Below the pieces are notes generated by a model. That model saw only the letters and a program-made list of their open reading frames with translations, made no database searches and was not told the origin of the DNA. DNA of 64,000 nucleotides from Cytophagia bacterium CHB2 (GTDB lineage Bacteria; Zhuqueibacterota; Zhuqueibacteria; Zhuqueibacterales; Zhuqueibacteraceae). A program made the translations under genes and the position numbers. Location: contig SZPB01000002.1 of the NCBI GenBank assembly GCA_030263535.1, positions 1-64,000 of the forward strand, written 5' to 3'. Shown here in pieces: positions 18,060 through 25,409 of the stretch; positions within the stretch are counted from its first letter, which is position 1, and the number at the start of each line of letters is the position of its first letter.

Positions 18060-18088
18060 TTGACATTTGATCAATTTACATGTATAAT
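18060..18088 (+). promoter_or_regulatory. Perfect consensus vegetative promoter
   Basis: TTGACA at 18060-18065 and TATAAT at 18083-18088 are separated by exactly 17 bp. It points towards the sigma-factor gene starting at 18463, giving a leader of about 370 nt. A match at all 12 positions is rare by chance and sits in an AT-rich spacer, as expected for a real promoter. Confidence 0.8.
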
Positions 18089-18462
18089 TTTTCAGTTTTT
18101 AAATGGCTGGCGCGCGCAACACACTTCATCCTGCCGTTGCAATTAGACCGTGTGAAAATTTAATGGTTTCATCGCGACCGGAGTATATTGAAGGTTAAGC
18201 TCTGACTTTTGTTGGTGCAGTGGCCCAAAAGCTTGACGCACGGTCTGCCCAAGTTTTCACACCGCCGCATTCTTCTGAAAGGACAAGCGCAGCGCCCCTC
18301 AGCAGCAGCCTGCAAAAGCTGCAATCGGCTTGCGACGAACAGTGATGGTGCACTCTGGGGCTTCGGGCGTGTTTGATCAATTAATCGACCTTCGATTTGC
18401 GACCGCCGGCAAGCGTCATCTGCTCTGCACGAGCGGAGAAATTTCTGACAACGAGCTGCCAC

Positions 18463-19179
18463 ATGTCTTACATTCTTCCCGGAAACGACTCCGAACAACG
18501 CTCATTTCAAAACAACAACCACAAAAATCTGACGCACAACGATCTCGTCAAGCAACTGGCACACGCACCAGATGATGAAAGGCTGTGGAGTGAATTCATT
18601 CAGCGTTATGACAAACATATTCAACGCACGATTTTCGTAATGTGCAAACGCATGCGTTATCGCGGCGTGGCGCAAGCAGAAGACCTGGCGCAGGAAGTCT
18701 ATCTGAAGTTAAAAGAAAAAAATGGGCACCGGCTGAAGGAATTCGAAGGACAGCACGCCAACTCGATTTTCACTTATCTTGAAACCATCGCGGCGAATGT
18801 CGTACGCAATGCCTGGCGCAATGACCACGCCCAAAAGCGCCCGCCGGCGGAAAAAGGCCTGGCGCTCGATCAGCAAGTCTTTCCCGCTAGCGAAGGCCGC
18901 GGCATCAATCTCGCCGAAATCCTGCCGGCGGAAAATTGGGATAATGAGGTGAAGCGCCTGGAATTGGAAGACGCGGTGGGTTACTGTTTGGGGAAAATTT
19001 TGGGCGATAAGCGTCACGCCCAACGCGACAGACTTCTCTTCAAACTGTATTTCTATCAAGATTTCTCCGCGGAGCAAATTGCACAGATTCGGCAAATCGG
19101 GCTTTCAGATAAGCGAATCTATGGCTTGCTCAAGACGCTGTCCGAAAAAGTGCGCGAATGCTTGCGCCGGCAAAATTAA
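18463..19179 (+). CDS. ECF-like RNA polymerase sigma factor
   Basis: About 238 residues. Region 2 has the sigma-70 helix with AEDLAQEVYLKLKEKNG (about residues 73-89), preceded by FIQRYDKHIQRTIFVMCKRM. The C-terminal third (KLYFYQDFSAEQIAQIRQIGLSDKRIYGLL, about 197-226, cited by position) looks like a diverged region 4 helix-turn-helix ending LSEKVRECLRRQN. There is no region 1 or 3, so it is ECF-type. The annotated start is ATG 18463; a TTG 22 codons upstream extends the frame but adds no family residues. It is the first gene after the strong promoter. A zinc-finger anti-sigma candidate follows 135 nt downstream, the classical arrangement. Confidence 0.85.
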   Translation: MSYILPGNDSEQRSFQNNNHKNLTHNDLVKQLAHAPDDERLWSEFIQRYDKHIQRTIFVMCKRMRYRGVAQAEDLAQEVYLKLKEKNGHRLKEFEGQHANSIFTYLETIAANVVRNAWRNDHAQKRPPAEKGLALDQQVFPASEGRGINLAEILPAENWDNEVKRLELEDAVGYCLGKILGDKRHAQRDRLLFKLYFYQDFSAEQIAQIRQIGLSDKRIYGLLKTLSEKVRECLRRQN

Positions 19180-19206
19180 TGTGACCAAAATTTTTTGGAG
19201 ACTTTT

Positions 19207-19290
19207 CAGGTGATTTCGTGTCCATAAGAACAGGATGATGGGCAAAACATTCTGGGTGTCCAGAACACGGATCAAATCACGAGTCACCTG
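19207..19290 (+). promoter_or_regulatory. Inverted repeat between sigma and anti-sigma genes
   Basis: CAGGTGA (19207-19213) and TCACCTG (19284-19290) can pair around a structured 70-nt loop that contains further short complements (TCGTG with CACGA). It ends 24 nt before the next start codon. It could act as an attenuator, an RNA processing site or a folded operator; none of these is shown by sequence alone. Confidence 0.4.
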
Positions 19291-19314
19291 TTTTATGAGG
19301 AAGGAAGTTTTATC

Positions 19315-20304
19315 ATGTCAACTGTTACGCCAGAAACCAAGCGCGAGAGCCGCGACTTCTCAGAAAGCCATCTTCGGGAGGCCCAAATTCTGAGATTTCT
19401 GGAAGGCACTCTCAGTGAAAACGAAGCGGAAAACGTGCAGGCTCATCTTGATTCCTGCCGCGAATGCTTTGATTTATTCTCCACCGCCGTGAAATACTCG
19501 CTCAATCCGCCCACCGCTGAAGAGGCGTCGGAGTTTGAAAAGTTATATAGACCAGCTCCGGAACGGCGATTGGAAAAACTGTTTGCCGTCCCCCCGGCCG
19601 GCCGAGTGCAGCCAAATTCACTCGCCGGGTTGCCAAAGCCTTTCCTGCCAAAAGCGCCAAAAATTCCATCATATTGGCGGCCAATTCTGGCGGCGGCGGC
19701 CGCGGTGTTGCTGGTGATATTCGCAGGCATGCCCCAATATGATAAATGGCGGAGCAATAATCTGGCGGAGCAAGCGTTTGTCGAACTTTCTTCCGATATT
19801 CATTTCGACAGTGCGGAGCAGCCGCGCCCGGCAGGCAGTTTCAAATACGATGAATTCAAAATCGTTCGTAATCAAGAGCGCGTTTCTCAAAGTCAACCGG
19901 CGCTCCAAAAGTTGCAGTCTGCTCTCGCAATTAAAAATGACAATCCCCGGGCGCATCAATATTTGGGGACTTATTATTTGCTCGTCGAGCAAGATTTGCA
20001 AAAAGCCGAGGAGCACTATAATAGGGCCAACACTCTGGCGCCTGGCGATGCCAGCATCCTGAATGATCTTGGTGTTTTGGCATGGCATAAATTGCAATAC
20101 GACGACGCGCTGGATAAATTCTCCGCGGCGTTGCAGCAGAGCCCGCGATTCGCAGAAGCGCAATACAATCTTGCGACACTTTATCAAAAACAGGGGAAGC
20201 TGACGCAAGCAGAGAATGTCTGGCAAAAATATTTGGAGATTGATTCGACGTCAACTTGGGCAAGCGTCGCGCGAGATCAGTTGACTGCCCTTCGAGGGCA
20301 ATGA
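19315..20304 (+). CDS. Membrane anti-sigma factor candidate with zinc finger and TPR repeats
   Basis: 329 residues. The N-terminal zinc-binding motif HLDSCRECFDLF (His44, Cys48, Cys51) is the anti-sigma zf-HC2 pattern and follows ILRFLEGTLSENEAENVQAH. One transmembrane helix lies at about 122-139 (WRPILAAAAAVLLVIFAGM). The C-terminal part, which would lie outside the membrane, has TPR units such as ALAIKNDNPRAHQYLGTYYL and ASILNDLGVLAWHKLQYDDALDKF. Expected role: hold the neighbouring sigma factor at the membrane until a signal reaches the TPR part. GAGGAAGGAAG precedes ATG 19315. Confidence 0.82.
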   Translation: MSTVTPETKRESRDFSESHLREAQILRFLEGTLSENEAENVQAHLDSCRECFDLFSTAVKYSLNPPTAEEASEFEKLYRPAPERRLEKLFAVPPAGRVQPNSLAGLPKPFLPKAPKIPSYWRPILAAAAAVLLVIFAGMPQYDKWRSNNLAEQAFVELSSDIHFDSAEQPRPAGSFKYDEFKIVRNQERVSQSQPALQKLQSALAIKNDNPRAHQYLGTYYLLVEQDLQKAEEHYNRANTLAPGDASILNDLGVLAWHKLQYDDALDKFSAALQQSPRFAEAQYNLATLYQKQGKLTQAENVWQKYLEIDSTSTWASVARDQLTALRGQ

Positions 20305-20378
20305 TGTCAACATTGGCTTGAAAGAGTGCAATCAAATAATTGCTCACCCCTAGAGGCGATTGACCGGGAGGATGATTC

Positions 20379-21623
20379 ATGAGAGCAACGGTTTCATCGA
20401 AAGTCAGCATTCTCCGTCCCAAACTGTTGGGCCTGGCATTGGGATGCTTTTGGGCATTCTCTGTATTTGTCAAAACACTGATTGCCATTCTCAGCAAAGA
20501 ACCGAGCAAGTTGGTCGATTTCTTTGATGCTGTATATCCTGGCTACCAACTTACGGCATTGGGCGTCATTTGGGGCGTATTGTGGGGATTTATTCATGGC
20601 TTCCTGCTCGGGTATCTGATTGGTTGGATATACACCCGGCTGACCAGAAAAAAAGTCAGCGCCGTTGAAGAGGGCGTTTTTAGTCTGCAACCAAATCATG
20701 TGATTCAGCCCGGGAGCGGATCCAATCCCTACACAATTGTTTTTGTTGCCAATCCTCGCATCTTGAAAGAAGACAAGACACTTGAGCGTGATCCCATCAT
20801 CGACAATCAGGAATTGTTTTTTAGAGTGGTCACACGCTGCCTCAGAAGTTTCGTCAACAACGAACTACTACGATTGCCGGAAATTATTTCACGATTGAGG
20901 TTGCTGGCGGTATTTCGAGATGAAGAAACGGCGCTTTGTGAGGAGGTTGCTGCCGGAATCGAAATTCTTGCGCCTTTGACCGAGGTTGCTGTGCTTAAGG
21001 AATTTGTGATGAGCACCGCGGAGCTGACGGACAAGCTTCCAGAGGTGGATATTATCTTCGTCATTTCTGCCTCCGATTATCTGACCCGTTCTTCGGCGCG
21101 CTTCACCAAGGATCGCTTCAATCGGGCTGACCGGAACTTTGAACTGACCTTCTCACCGGATCTCGCAACTTTCACAACCATGAAACATGCTGCGCTGGCC
21201 GAACTTCCCGGTGTTGCGGCAATTTCCGCGTGGGATGAACGGCTAAAGACGCCGGTGCATGAATTCGCGCATGCCATGTCTTCATTGGAAAATGGCGCCA
21301 TCGTCGATGAGTATGTCGACAAGTATCATCCAAAGTCCGAAGTTCTGTTGCGAGACAAGATGATCAATCGCAGGGATCGTGAGGTTGCCAACGCGGCCAT
21401 CGCTGATGTTTTCGCCAAATACCGATACAATAATGAATTGGTGGAGTATTATTCCGATCGCTATCGCAGCGACAAGGATTCAAGCTGGACTTCCTATGTG
21501 CCGGAACGCATCGACATCGGTTGCTCGTGTGTCATGGACATCGCCTACTACGAGTTTCGCTGGGACAAATTAATCTTCGATTTTATGTATGATCGCTTAT
21601 TGGCGAAATTGAACAGATCGTAG
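20379..21623 (+). CDS. Membrane-anchored HExxH metallopeptidase, M64-like, unknown role
   Basis: 414 residues. Residues about 14-88 form two transmembrane helices with the phrase DAVYPGY between them, similar to the small protein at 25014. A soluble domain of about 300 residues follows. It contains HEFAHAM (His294, Glu295, His298), a zinc-metallopeptidase motif, and IVDEY at 309-312 in the position of the third ligand region of M64-type (IgA peptidase-like) enzymes. Two Cys (IGCSC) lie near the end. There is no signal for export of the catalytic part; topology with both termini inside puts it in the cytoplasm, but this is a guess. GGGAGG lies 8 nt upstream of ATG 20379. Third gene of the sigma-factor operon. 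Confidence 0.65.
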   Translation: MRATVSSKVSILRPKLLGLALGCFWAFSVFVKTLIAILSKEPSKLVDFFDAVYPGYQLTALGVIWGVLWGFIHGFLLGYLIGWIYTRLTRKKVSAVEEGVFSLQPNHVIQPGSGSNPYTIVFVANPRILKEDKTLERDPIIDNQELFFRVVTRCLRSFVNNELLRLPEIISRLRLLAVFRDEETALCEEVAAGIEILAPLTEVAVLKEFVMSTAELTDKLPEVDIIFVISASDYLTRSSARFTKDRFNRADRNFELTFSPDLATFTTMKHAALAELPGVAAISAWDERLKTPVHEFAHAMSSLENGAIVDEYVDKYHPKSEVLLRDKMINRRDREVANAAIADVFAKYRYNNELVEYYSDRYRSDKDSSWTSYVPERIDIGCSCVMDIAYYEFRWDKLIFDFMYDRLLAKLNRS

Positions 21624-21660
21624 CGCTGGCACTCTGGTTCAAATTTCTGTGGAGAACTTT

Positions 21661-22050
21661 ATGACGCCCCTACACCCGAAATTGCGAAGAGCCCTTTTGC
21701 GGGATCCCCTGCATCGTGATAGAGGATTAACCCCCAAGAAGTTGATTGAATATGAAGGCTTGTTGACGCAATTGTATTATCTCGTGTATTATTCTCGAGG
21801 CTTTGAAACCACCGATAAAGACCTCCTGGTTCGGCAGATTTTTGCGTTTCGCGATTCCAAGTCTCCGACATCTTTTATGCCCAACTATGACAGAATCTAT
21901 CGCGCTTGGATAGAGGGACAGAAGAAGGCGCTTACGAGACATTATCATGGCCCCTCCTTTAATGGTGTTTGGGAGCTAATTCAGAACTGGATTGCGAAGG
22001 TATTTCGGACACCTTTGAGAAAAGACCGGAAAGATGCGAAGCTTCGCTAA
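21661..22050 (+). CDS. Small basic protein of unknown function
   Basis: 129 residues, rich in Lys/Arg and aromatic residues, with no signal peptide or membrane helix. The central part (LIEYEGLLTQLYYLVYYSRG) is probably helical and the tail (FRTPLRKDRKDAKLR) is strongly basic. No family is recognised. The start is set at ATG 21661 because GGAG lies 6 nt ahead of it; the GTG at 21649 would overlap that site. Its end overlaps the start of the CHAT gene by 17 nt, so translation of the two is probably coupled. It may be a dedicated partner or substrate of one of the neighbouring proteases. Confidence 0.7.
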   Translation: MTPLHPKLRRALLRDPLHRDRGLTPKKLIEYEGLLTQLYYLVYYSRGFETTDKDLLVRQIFAFRDSKSPTSFMPNYDRIYRAWIEGQKKALTRHYHGPSFNGVWELIQNWIAKVFRTPLRKDRKDAKLR

Positions 22051-24979
22051 ATTCGTTTACCCCGGCATAGCCATTTGGGGGCTCATCGCTGTCCTGGCAT
22101 GGTTCTTTTCCTTCATCGCATCTGACCCTGTGCCAATGGATCAGCTTGAGAAAGAGTTGGGCCAGCGTACGCTCACTGCTCAGGAAGAAGAACTGCTGAA
22201 CGAATTTTCTTTGCATTGCGAAAAAAGCAAGCATCAACAGGCCGTCGCCGTGATTTTGAATCAGCCGTTTCGCTTTCGCAACCTTTTTCAAAAAGTGTTG
22301 CAGCACGCGCTTTTTTCCAAGCTCACGCAAGATCTCGTGAACGCGAACGAAAGTTTCGAGATTGCTGCCGCAATTGCCCGGGTTTATCAGGATAGTCTCG
22401 CCGATAATTTCTTGATGAACGAACTCCATTTCAGCAAACTGCTCACAACCGCGCAACTGCAGCGCAAACTCGAAGCCGACTATTTTTTTAACAAAGGAAT
22501 CGCCAGTCTTTCACAGAACGATTCCGCGATGTACTTCTTTAAAAAGTCGCTGCACTTGAGTCGCAAGATCGGCGATGAGAAGCGAAAAGCAGACAATCTT
22601 TTGATGTGGCAGTATGTTTTGTATCAAAAAGGGGCTTATGAAGACGCACTAAAAATTGGGGAAGAGTTGTTGGAAATCGTTCGCCGAACGGGGTATCTCC
22701 ATCGCGAAGCCGGCGCACTGTATAATATCGGGCAAATCTACATTGAGTCGGGCGAGGTGCGCAAAGCGCTGGAATGTTTTAACCGTGCGTGGGAAATTCA
22801 TCGCACGATCGGCAATCAAGCTGGCGAATTGCAGCTTCTGGGACGATTGGGGGTGGCCAATAATCAGATGGGAGATTTTCCCCGGGCGCTGGATTTTCTT
22901 GATCAAGCGATCACACTGTGCCAAGCATCCGGGAATAAATGGGAGGAGCTAAAAAATTTGAATGATAGAGGCCTTGTATTCAAAAATATTGGAGACTATG
23001 AAAAGGCCAAACGCGAGTATACTAACGCCTTCGAGAGAGCCGAAGAAGAGAAAGATTATCCCAATCAGGCAGTGATACTGAATAATCTTGGAATTCTCTA
23101 CCGTCTTCTGGGTGATAGCGAGCAATCCTTCAGTTACCTTTCACATGCTCTGGCCATTAATGACAGCCTTGGGAATCCCTACGACATTGCGCTTACCCTA
23201 AAAAACCTTGGCGACGTTTACAAGGATCAGGATAGCCTGAAGCTTGCATTAGCGTACCTCGAACAAGCGCGCAGCATAATCAAGAAAAATGCGGCAACCG
23301 AGACGTTTAAGCCTCGAATCTTGGAATCTGATATATTAATCAACATGGGAGACATTGAAGCAGGGCAAAACAACCACAGCACGGCATTAGGGTATTATGA
23401 AACCGCGCTAACCACGTTCAAAACGATAGGTTTTAAAACGGGGATCGCCTCCGCCCTCATCCGGATTGGCAACACGCTAGCAGGGATGGGGCAGCACGAA
23501 AATGCCCTGGAAAACCTCAACGAAGCGCTGGCAATTGCCAATGCGATTGAAACGCCATTACACCAAGTACATGCGCTGTATGGCATCGGGCTCGTTTACC
23601 AGCGCACCACGGATTTCGACCTGGCTGAAAAATATTTTGAGCAGGCCATTGCACAAGTGGAAGCGGCGAGAGTCCACATTCAACGTGAAGATCGCATCAG
23701 TTACTTTTCCACCATACAAAATCTTTTTGATCAAATGATTATTCTGCAATGGATGCGAGGAAATGGCCATGCCGCGTTTGCGTACTCGGAAAGAGCGAGG
23801 GCAAGGGGGTTTCTTGACATTCTTCGCGAACGCTCAAACGATGCTTATAAGGTCTCATCCAATAGCGATCATCCTGCCAGCTTGGAAGGCATTCAAAACA
23901 GTCTGAATCAGGGTGTTGTTTTGCTAGAATACCGCGTCACACAAGATCGTCTCATTATATTCGCCGTTGACCATAAGAATCTTCTGATTAAGGATGTTGC
24001 TATCTCCCGCGCTGATTTGAGCCGACTGGTCGATGCTTTTCGAGGCACGGTTGAAAAAACCGACCCCGATTCCTATGCGCGCTATCTGGAATTAGCGCAG
24101 CGACTATATGAGATCGTGATTGCGCCAATCAAACAGGGCATTTCTCCTGAGAAGAATGTTTATGTTATCCCGGATGGCGTACTGTATCAGGTGCCTTTTG
24201 CCGCGCTGGTATTCACACAGGACGGCCAGCAAAAATTTTTGATGCAGGACTATAATCTTGCTTACGCTCCCAGCGCCACAATACTGAAGCTCTGTCTTGA
24301 CAATCGCCGGCCCGCCATTCCTGCGAATCAGATGAAGTTGTTTGCGCTTGGAAATCCCACCGGCGATTTGAGACATTCTGCGACGGAGGTGAGAGATATC
24401 GCAAGGATGTTTTTCAATCCCGATACGCTGATCGGGAAAAATATTCCGGAGGGCAAAATCTCAGGGATGCTGCAAGAGAACATTAATATACTGCATTTTG
24501 CCACGCATGCTTCGATTAATGGCAAAAGCCCTTTGGCCTCCTATCTTGTCGTTGGCGCCGAAAACGGCAAAGCCCCTCACCATCAGTCAAGAACAAATCA
24601 TGACGATGATGGCCGATTGAGCGCATACGAAGTGTACGATCTCAATCTCGCCGAGACGCAACTGGTTACGCTCTCGGCATGCAGCACGGCGAATGGACGT
24701 TTTTTTCAAGGGGAGGGCGTTGTCGGCCTGACGCACGCTTTTATGAAGGCAGGAACCAATGCGATTATTGCAACGCAATGGAATATTCCCGATAAATATA
24801 CTATGGAACTCATGAAATCATTTTATCACAACTGGATCACAAAGAAAATGACGAAAACGGAGGCGCTGCGAGAAGCGCAACAAAAAATAATTATTGAGAT
24901 GTCACGGAAGAGCGCAACACAAAATCTTCCATATCCCAAAGCGTGGGCCGCCATCACATTGACCGGTGATTACCGTTGA
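22034..24979 (+). CDS. Membrane TPR-CHAT protein (caspase-like protease)
   Basis: 981 residues. A single N-terminal membrane helix (about 9-29, GIAIWGLIAVLAWFFSF) is followed by at least eight TPR units (about 150-560), for example GALYNIGQIYIESGEVRKAL and VILNNLGILYRLLGDSEQSF. The C-terminal CHAT domain spans about 640-981. The catalytic pair is intact: His825 in LHFATHASI and Cys883 in LSACSTANGRF, followed by GEGVVGLTHAFMKAGTNAI and ATQWNI. CHAT proteins are caspase/separase relatives; some act as proteases in bacterial immunity, others are uncharacterised. The TPR part would sense or bind a partner. It overlaps the preceding small gene. Confidence 0.9.
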   Translation: MRSFAKFVYPGIAIWGLIAVLAWFFSFIASDPVPMDQLEKELGQRTLTAQEEELLNEFSLHCEKSKHQQAVAVILNQPFRFRNLFQKVLQHALFSKLTQDLVNANESFEIAAAIARVYQDSLADNFLMNELHFSKLLTTAQLQRKLEADYFFNKGIASLSQNDSAMYFFKKSLHLSRKIGDEKRKADNLLMWQYVLYQKGAYEDALKIGEELLEIVRRTGYLHREAGALYNIGQIYIESGEVRKALECFNRAWEIHRTIGNQAGELQLLGRLGVANNQMGDFPRALDFLDQAITLCQASGNKWEELKNLNDRGLVFKNIGDYEKAKREYTNAFERAEEEKDYPNQAVILNNLGILYRLLGDSEQSFSYLSHALAINDSLGNPYDIALTLKNLGDVYKDQDSLKLALAYLEQARSIIKKNAATETFKPRILESDILINMGDIEAGQNNHSTALGYYETALTTFKTIGFKTGIASALIRIGNTLAGMGQHENALENLNEALAIANAIETPLHQVHALYGIGLVYQRTTDFDLAEKYFEQAIAQVEAARVHIQREDRISYFSTIQNLFDQMIILQWMRGNGHAAFAYSERARARGFLDILRERSNDAYKVSSNSDHPASLEGIQNSLNQGVVLLEYRVTQDRLIIFAVDHKNLLIKDVAISRADLSRLVDAFRGTVEKTDPDSYARYLELAQRLYEIVIAPIKQGISPEKNVYVIPDGVLYQVPFAALVFTQDGQQKFLMQDYNLAYAPSATILKLCLDNRRPAIPANQMKLFALGNPTGDLRHSATEVRDIARMFFNPDTLIGKNIPEGKISGMLQENINILHFATHASINGKSPLASYLVVGAENGKAPHHQSRTNHDDDGRLSAYEVYDLNLAETQLVTLSACSTANGRFFQGEGVVGLTHAFMKAGTNAIIATQWNIPDKYTMELMKSFYHNWITKKMTKTEALREAQQKIIIEMSRKSATQNLPYPKAWAAITLTGDYR

Positions 24980-25013
24980 AACGTTCACGTTATCTCAACA
25001 TGAGGAGTAGCAA

Positions 25014-25409
25014 ATGAATGGTTCAAACCAAGAGAATCTTTTGCTTTTGACGGATGCCACCTCCAAAGGCGGGCCGCCGGCAACTGACACATTTTATTCT
25101 GAAAGGGCATTGCTGCGCGCCGGACTCTTCGACAGCGTCAAACTTGGCGTGGCCATCGGGCTGGCGTGGGCGCTGATGTTTCTGCTCGTGTCACTTATCG
25201 TGCTCTTCTCCGGACAGAGCGCGGTCTTGGAGCTGTTCGAGCTGATCTACCCCGGGATGGATTTGCAGAATTCCTTTACAGTCGTTTCCCTGGGGATAGT
25301 CTTCAGTTTTGTTTACGGTTTTGTTTTCGGACTCATTACCGGCGTGATTTACAATAGCTTTGTTCGCAGGAGCGTGCTTGAAAGTGAAAGTTTTGAAACA
25401 TTCGTATAG
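25014..25409 (+). CDS. Small two-helix membrane protein, holin-like
   Basis: 131 residues. It has two long hydrophobic segments (KLGVAIGLAWALMFLLVSLI and FTVVSLGIVFSFVYGFVFGL) joined by a loop with LFELIYPGMDL, and short polar ends. The order of hydrophobic blocks and the xYPGx loop match the N-terminal part of the metallopeptidase at 20379, so the two are likely paralogous. Short proteins of this type are often labelled phage holin in databases, without proof. AGGAG lies 6 nt upstream of ATG 25014. It is the last gene of the operon and converges with the VWA gene, the two stops being 6 nt apart. Confidence 0.75.
   Translation: MNGSNQENLLLLTDATSKGGPPATDTFYSERALLRAGLFDSVKLGVAIGLAWALMFLLVSLIVLFSGQSAVLELFELIYPGMDLQNSFTVVSLGIVFSFVYGFVFGLITGVIYNSFVRRSVLESESFETFV

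Follow-up and report, generated by a model that had tools for sequence, protein, structure and literature searches.

A conserved operon encoding an ECF-like sigma factor, a putative TPR anti-sigma factor, and two predicted membrane-anchored peptidases as a candidate for transmembrane signaling by proteolysis

Regulated proteolysis of membrane anti-sigma factors is exemplified by Escherichia coli RseA, which is cut by DegS and RseP, and by Bacillus subtilis RsiW (PMC10028731). A sigma inhibitor is also the substrate of Csx29, the TPR-CHAT protease of the Csx29/Csx30/CASP-sigma system (PMC10028731), and for ECF54 sigma factors proteolytic control has been proposed from the neighboring CHAT, subtilase, and carboxypeptidase genes (reviewed in PMC8999054). 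In this study, we analyzed a window of 64,000 nucleotides (positions 1-64000 of contig C2 in a 7.0 Mb, 681-contig assembly, G000), which carries an operon comparable with all of these systems. Similarly to the RseA and RsiW systems, it comprises an ECF sigma factor and a membrane-spanning protein of zinc-finger type, with a protease predicted on each membrane face, here encoded in the same operon. It differs from the DegS/RseP systems in that the outer protease would be a CHAT cysteine peptidase and the inner one an M64-fold peptidase rather than an RseP-type site-2 protease, and in its extra partners, namely a small protein of no known family (UNK) and a two-helix membrane protein (2-TM); no genes for DegS-type site-1 or RseP-type site-2 proteases are found in the operon. 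As in Craspase (PMC10028731), a TPR-CHAT protease is genetically linked to an ECF sigma factor and a putative sigma inhibitor; in contrast to Craspase, the CHAT domain is predicted to lie outside the cytoplasm and a metallopeptidase is additionally present. Neither Cas7-11/gRAMP nor CRISPR genes were found beside it, nor was Csx30 found, and PADLOC applied to the six proteins and to 69 proteins flanking homologous modules returned no type III-E component. The ECF54 contexts also place an ECF sigma factor near CHAT and other peptidase genes, but ECF54 is described as having no anti-sigma factor (PMC8999054), whereas the window encodes a zf-HC2/TPR protein, and the likeness is one of gene context only. 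Among open-licence papers, none was found that treats CHAT and zf-HC2 together, and of those joining CHAT with sigma or anti-sigma factors the relevant ones were the Craspase papers and the ECF review, which leave this gene set undescribed, in agreement with a first-pass annotation of the window that knew of no system with exactly these genes.

The operon occupies positions 18463-25409 of the + strand and is flanked by a divergent molybdopterin-oxidoreductase gene on one side and by a convergent vWA gene on the other. All six open reading frames were recovered in the order first reported for them, with TIGR02937, zf-HC2, TPR, and CHAT matches: an ECF-like sigma factor (238 aa, 18463..19179, +; TIGR02937, 59.4 bits against a cut-off of 42.9), a putative anti-sigma factor (329 aa, 19315..20304, +), a membrane-anchored M64-fold HExxH metallopeptidase (414 aa, 20379..21623, +), UNK (21661..22050, +), a TPR-CHAT caspase-like protease with an N-terminal signal anchor (981 aa, 22034..24979, +), and the 2-TM protein (131 aa, 25014..25409, +). 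The 17 nt overlap between the UNK and CHAT genes was likewise found (22034-22050). Upstream stands a consensus sigma-70 promoter (TTGACA-17-TATAAT, 18060..18088, +), correctly described before as perfect (12/12 positions), of which the whole 7.0 Mb genome holds four perfect copies. Gene starts are mechanical calls and the assemblies are fragmented; with ATG 18463 as the probable start of the sigma factor, the 5' leader measures ~370 nt. An Rfam scan of the operon and leader gave nothing. At the orthologous locus, the promoter block TTGACATTTGA...ACATGTATAATTTTTCA is conserved within the species and in two further genomes of the genus, whereas the flanking sequence has diverged. The block is of a strong housekeeping type, and the leaders behind it, ~200-370 nt long, are diverged within the genus. 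The consensus promoter suggests that the proteolytic machine is made in advance, and control would thus be mainly post-translational.

The second protein fits the architecture of class I membrane anti-sigma factors (zf-HC2), and its binding and inhibition of the sigma factor are putative. Pfam recognizes zf-HC2 (30.3 bits, cut-off 22.2) as well as TPR, and the zinc motif HLDSCREC at residue 44 (Hx3Cx2C) lies N-terminal to the single TM helix, with the ECF sigma factor encoded beside it. The topologies given here are charge-rule predictions around TM helices; for this protein they indicate a membrane-spanning chain that has its sigma-binding finger on the inner side and its TPR domain on the outer side. 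The anti-sigma function of the TPR protein may not be universal, because the zf-HC2 motif is unrecognizable in the homologs of four loci (L077, L081, L089, and L090).

The third protein has two TM helices (residues 14-96) followed by a catalytic domain with HEFAH at residues 294-298. H294, E295, H298, D310, and Y312 are invariant across 20 homologs, and E311 and D314 are almost invariant. From the positive charges that flank the helices on both cytosolic sides, the peptidase domain is predicted to be cytosolic. Single-sequence scans of Pfam, NCBIfam, and PADLOC named neither this domain nor UNK, and a search of the PDB with a sequence profile of the aligned peptidases returned chance TM matches only, so that a fold comparison was needed. 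The AF2 model, built from the window protein and 19 homologs (pLDDT 87.6), had M64 peptidases as its best Foldseek matches in the PDB (E-values from 6.7e-7 to 1.6e-4, probability 1.00, TM-score ~0.4 over the whole chain), and the predicted structure shows the M64 fold. It resembles BACOVA_00663 (3p1v), BF3526 (9qdi), and the T. ramosa IgA protease (9ekk) in predicted fold and in an HExxH motif followed by G and D-E-Y, but shares 10-12% identity with them, is 2-TM-anchored and predicted to be cytosolic whereas they are secreted, and has another zinc-motif spacing (HExxH-X7-G-X3-D versus HExxH-X3-G-X2-D). The M64 hallmark is HEXXHXXXGXXD (PMC12402451), and canonical M64 enzymes of the same phylum retain HEFGHSFAGLGDEYY or close variants; the module motif, HEFAHAMSSLENGAIVDEY, is 5 residues longer, and the X7/X3 spacing occurs in the module peptidases and two lone homologs alike. 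No Pfam match to PF09471 was obtained for any of the 20 members, and hhalign against canonical M64 gave a probability of 53 over an alignment of just 26 columns. On the model, the peptidase is M64-like in fold, and we do not file it as an M64 member. The longer spacing is shared by lone relatives in Bradyrhizobium and Thermoanaerobaculia. Lone relatives that lack the 2-TM anchor come from a Thermoanaerobaculia MAG and from plasmids of rhizobia (L088:9611-11020, L149:7791-8747, and plasmid CP140857.1); the first two have the HExxH-X7-G-X3-D spacing, but with Leu at the E311 position.

The CHAT domain of the fifth protein scores 209 bits (PF12770, cut-off 24) and is accompanied by TPR. H825 and C883, noted earlier as intact, are invariant in 15 homologs, and because the catalytic residues of the two enzymes, peptidases of unrelated type, are invariant, both are probably active. 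The membrane anchoring first proposed for this protein held, but its CHAT domain is probably extracytoplasmic, at the outer face of the inner membrane, as a lipoprotein or by a signal anchor, and not inside. This placement follows the charge pattern, with positive charges N-terminal to one TM in nearly all homologs, the lipoboxes of six module CHATs, and the LLCGC of both CHATs of the three-gene variant described below. In the fusions of UNK to the CHAT N-terminus (L086 and L085), a TM sits between the two parts, and a post-TM stretch of the L089 UNK, by its sequence a Pfam Ig-domain match, was also counted for CHAT export. In the CHAT-domain tree, the CHATs of six-gene modules cluster together (96/95), apart from those of the three-gene loci and from the other CHATs that this genome encodes. 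It has at least five additional strong CHAT proteins (contigs C174, C113, C238, C74, and C183), and the stretches read around them held no gene related to the window sigma factor.

UNK comprises 129 aa, as first annotated, when read from ATG 21661, the start common to its homologs; the open frame itself, beginning at GTG 21649, spans 133 aa. Its profile, run over 82 genomes of the phylum, matched 16 loci in 15 genomes (E <=1.1e-13), all of them module loci, with two marginal matches beyond these. The AF2 model is all-helical (pLDDT 83), and a fold search against the PDB gave nothing significant. UNK is predicted to lie on the inner face, coupled to CHAT through the membrane. The sixth protein is homologous to the peptidase anchor (in the same-species copy, 32% identical to residues 4-93 of the peptidase, E 2e-12), and the two 2-TM units probably pair with each other. 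The peptidase N-terminus scores 74.6 against NF037947, 'bacteriophage holin' (holin_4; cut-off 70), and the 2-TM protein 37.3, below the cut-off.

The same operon, with proteins 98-100% identical, is present in 'candidate division KSB1 bacterium isolate KSB J3'. Gene 3 was matched in 21 out of 82 genomes from the phylum, with the match confined to the 2-TM part in G009, G040, and G045; E-values of the related-locus search are relative to the candidates. In the loci read out, some of which are cut by contig ends, the peptidase is accompanied by other genes of the module, arranged as SIG-ZF/TPR-HExxH-UNK-CHAT-2TM, mostly with short gaps or overlaps, and a relative of the window sigma factor is the first gene of nearly all intact modules. 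The distribution outside the home phylum comes from one pattern-based scan of 84,980 species genomes, which added Calditrichota loci (L074, L086, L089, and L090), a locus on a Brocadia MAG contig that may be mis-binned (L076), and lone or partial peptidases in Thermoanaerobaculia (L088) and Cytophagaceae (L092). Of 12 modules compared, 11 share this order; one of the 11 has UNK fused to CHAT, and another contains a UNK gene that the gene caller missed and the profile found; in the rearranged twelfth (L090), the TPR gene is relocated beside CHAT. The gene set and order recur in many KSB1 genera and in Calditrichota with proteins only ~20-50% identical, and because they do so across genera and phyla despite this divergence, the module is more than a chance arrangement. 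The conservation of linkage and of both catalytic sites expected for a true module was thus found.

Pairwise-distance correlations among 10-12 modules, which partly reflect shared genome ancestry and are informative in their contrast with the sigma factor, were highest between the peptidase and CHAT (0.80), followed by CHAT-UNK (0.72), CHAT-2TM (0.70), peptidase-UNK (0.69), and peptidase-2TM (0.66); the ZF/TPR protein correlated with CHAT at 0.61 and with the peptidase at 0.51. For the sigma factor, r ranged from -0.08 to 0.24 against every other module gene, with 0.24 against its presumed anti-sigma factor. Saturation alone does not explain these low values, because the sigma factors are no more diverged than the CHATs (median identity 25% versus 21%). 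The distances point to co-evolution of the peptidase, CHAT, UNK, and the 2-TM protein, which the sigma factor, as the least tied component, does not track. The tight peptidase-CHAT pair would also fit a membrane protease cascade in which CHAT has the M64-like peptidase or the 2-TM protein as its zymogen substrate and the sigma factor is a regulator at promoter level only. The conserved Gly/Pro/Asp-rich tail of the 2-TM protein, duplicated in two loci (L071 and L075), and the cutting of IgA by the M64 enzyme ThomasA at P221-V222, immediately ahead of the hinge (PMC12402451), are compatible with such processing; however, the predictions place the two catalytic domains on different sides of the membrane, and we regard this cascade as the least probable of the explanations considered.

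We hypothesize, at a rough probability of 0.4, that the operon performs transmembrane signaling by proteolysis, similar to RIP, in which the TPR anti-sigma factor is cut from two sides. The outer TPR domains would sense a signal and CHAT would be activated; active CHAT would cut the outer part of the anti-sigma factor; the change would be relayed inward through UNK and the 2-TM proteins to the M64-like peptidase, which would remove the inner anti-sigma part and free the sigma factor. Two-sided proteolysis is the best fit because it explains why a TPR protein spans the membrane, why each face has a protease, why there is a coupling protein, and why the TPR protein and the proteases co-vary. Of the three outcomes offered by the first-pass annotation (cell death, defence, and proteolysis of the anti-sigma factor), the last appears the best. 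The conserved order in distant genomes, the invariant catalytic residues, the predicted topology, the fusions, and the distance correlations count for a proteolytic relay, as do the Csx29 precedent and the proposal made for ECF54. Against it count the sigma factor, which does not co-vary with the peptidases and does so only weakly with the presumed anti-sigma factor, the loss of a recognizable zf-HC2 in several homologs, and L085, which has the peptidase and CHAT with no sigma or anti-sigma factor detected nearby.

A clean empty site was expected in same-genus genomes that have no six-gene module (G076 and G077), yet a three-gene variant was found there. At the six-gene site, next to the vWA gene, these loci (L113:6159-11159 and L114:7178-12287) encode a sigma factor, a zf-HC2-TPR protein, and a lipoprotein TPR-CHAT, which are 51-55%, ~41%, and ~27% identical to those of the window, respectively. 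They stand behind the same promoter block; compared with the window, the CHAT is of another lineage and the M64-like peptidase, UNK, and 2-TM genes are missing. The simplest reading of these sequences would be a swap of the effector part, in either direction, behind a retained promoter, sigma factor, and anti-sigma factor, and the effector part appears exchangeable. The six-gene set stands as a conserved unit, but as one configuration of a wider arrangement: the three-gene version weakens the claim that exactly these six genes define the system and supports a more general logic of sigma factor, TPR anti-sigma factor, and exported CHAT. Since it has no inner peptidase, CHAT and the anti-sigma factor alone may be enough.

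Membrane peptidases behind an ECF sigma factor are typical outputs of stress regulons. The peptidases and 2-TM proteins may accordingly be envelope-stress output, raised in level by a sigma/anti-sigma pair that senses damage, which processes or degrades envelope proteins and exerts no control over the sigma factor, a reading nearly as good as two-sided proteolysis and, in our estimate, somewhat unlikely. The absence of co-variation between sigma factor and cassette suits it, as does the apparent swapping of the cassette at a single site where promoter, sigma factor, and anti-sigma factor are conserved, which is how an output would behave. The upstream promoter, however, is of housekeeping consensus and not of ECF type, the TPR anti-sigma protein co-varies with the peptidases (0.51-0.61), and its gene lies beside CHAT in L090. 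Two-sided proteolysis, taken to its most specific form, would be a relay not described before, passing from an exported TPR-CHAT through a coupling protein and paired 2-TM units to cytosolic M64-fold peptidases, with the anti-sigma factor cut from both sides and the cassette exchangeable behind a fixed promoter, sigma factor, and anti-sigma factor; as a whole, this is rather unlikely. The operon would carry the proteolytic control of sigma factors over to a caspase-like protease that is exported and acts outside CRISPR. In poorly known phyla, it adds a new family of proteins, the 129-aa CHAT partner, and a new line of zinc peptidases with the M64 fold. The conserved residues, the fusions, and the natural three-gene comparison make the idea of CHAT as a common anti-sigma protease directly testable.

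Defence or programmed death, in which infection or damage would activate CHAT and, through it, a 2-TM 'holin-like' protein or the peptidase to kill the cell, had also been put forward, and we consider it improbable. CRISPR immunity does make use of a TPR-CHAT protease (Craspase, PMC10028731), the 2-TM domain is similar to NF037947, and the distribution is patchy, as seen in the 21 of 82 genomes with a peptidase match, three of them limited to the 2-TM part. However, no PADLOC system model fits the six proteins, which gave just generic TPR models and weak matches; the 69 proteins encoded around 14 of the loci belong mostly to ordinary metabolism, with no defence island or enrichment of defence systems by PADLOC and Pfam; a search of phages and viral contigs found no module copies; and the predicted site of CHAT, outside the cytoplasm, would separate it from phage nucleic acids. 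The holin name reflects a 2-TM match only, and with stand-alone copies occurring outside the module we did not accept this reading on the name alone; the family name may be misleading. Stand-alone 2-TM proteins of 88-93 aa are present in the same phylum (L055:9276-9548, L060:4407-4673, and L059:434-715); they are related to NF037947, and the two that were scanned both exceed the cut-off. An origin as a mobile element was also considered and rejected: phages and viral contigs carried no copies, and plasmids gave lone rhizobial peptidase relatives and a 2-TM 'holin' match in Haladaptatus.

The conserved N-terminal tail of the 2-TM protein reads SGPPPTDxFY or GGGGPEDDPR (window 25014-25140) and is duplicated in L071:14704-14900 and L075:5726-5870; it is a candidate docking or cleavage site. 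A helical insert of ~60 residues is seemingly common to some UNK proteins and one peptidase (L053:6571-8916, L073:1492-2121, L074:11739-12770, and L076:969-1646), with two copies in L053. It is possibly an interaction domain; the sharing is suggestive only, because these sequences also went into the model. Two module copies occur in each of two genomes, MAG PMV_1 (L080 and L082) and MAG IP29b_bin.38 (L074 and L089), and those of IP29b_bin.38 fall in the two deep CHAT lineages.
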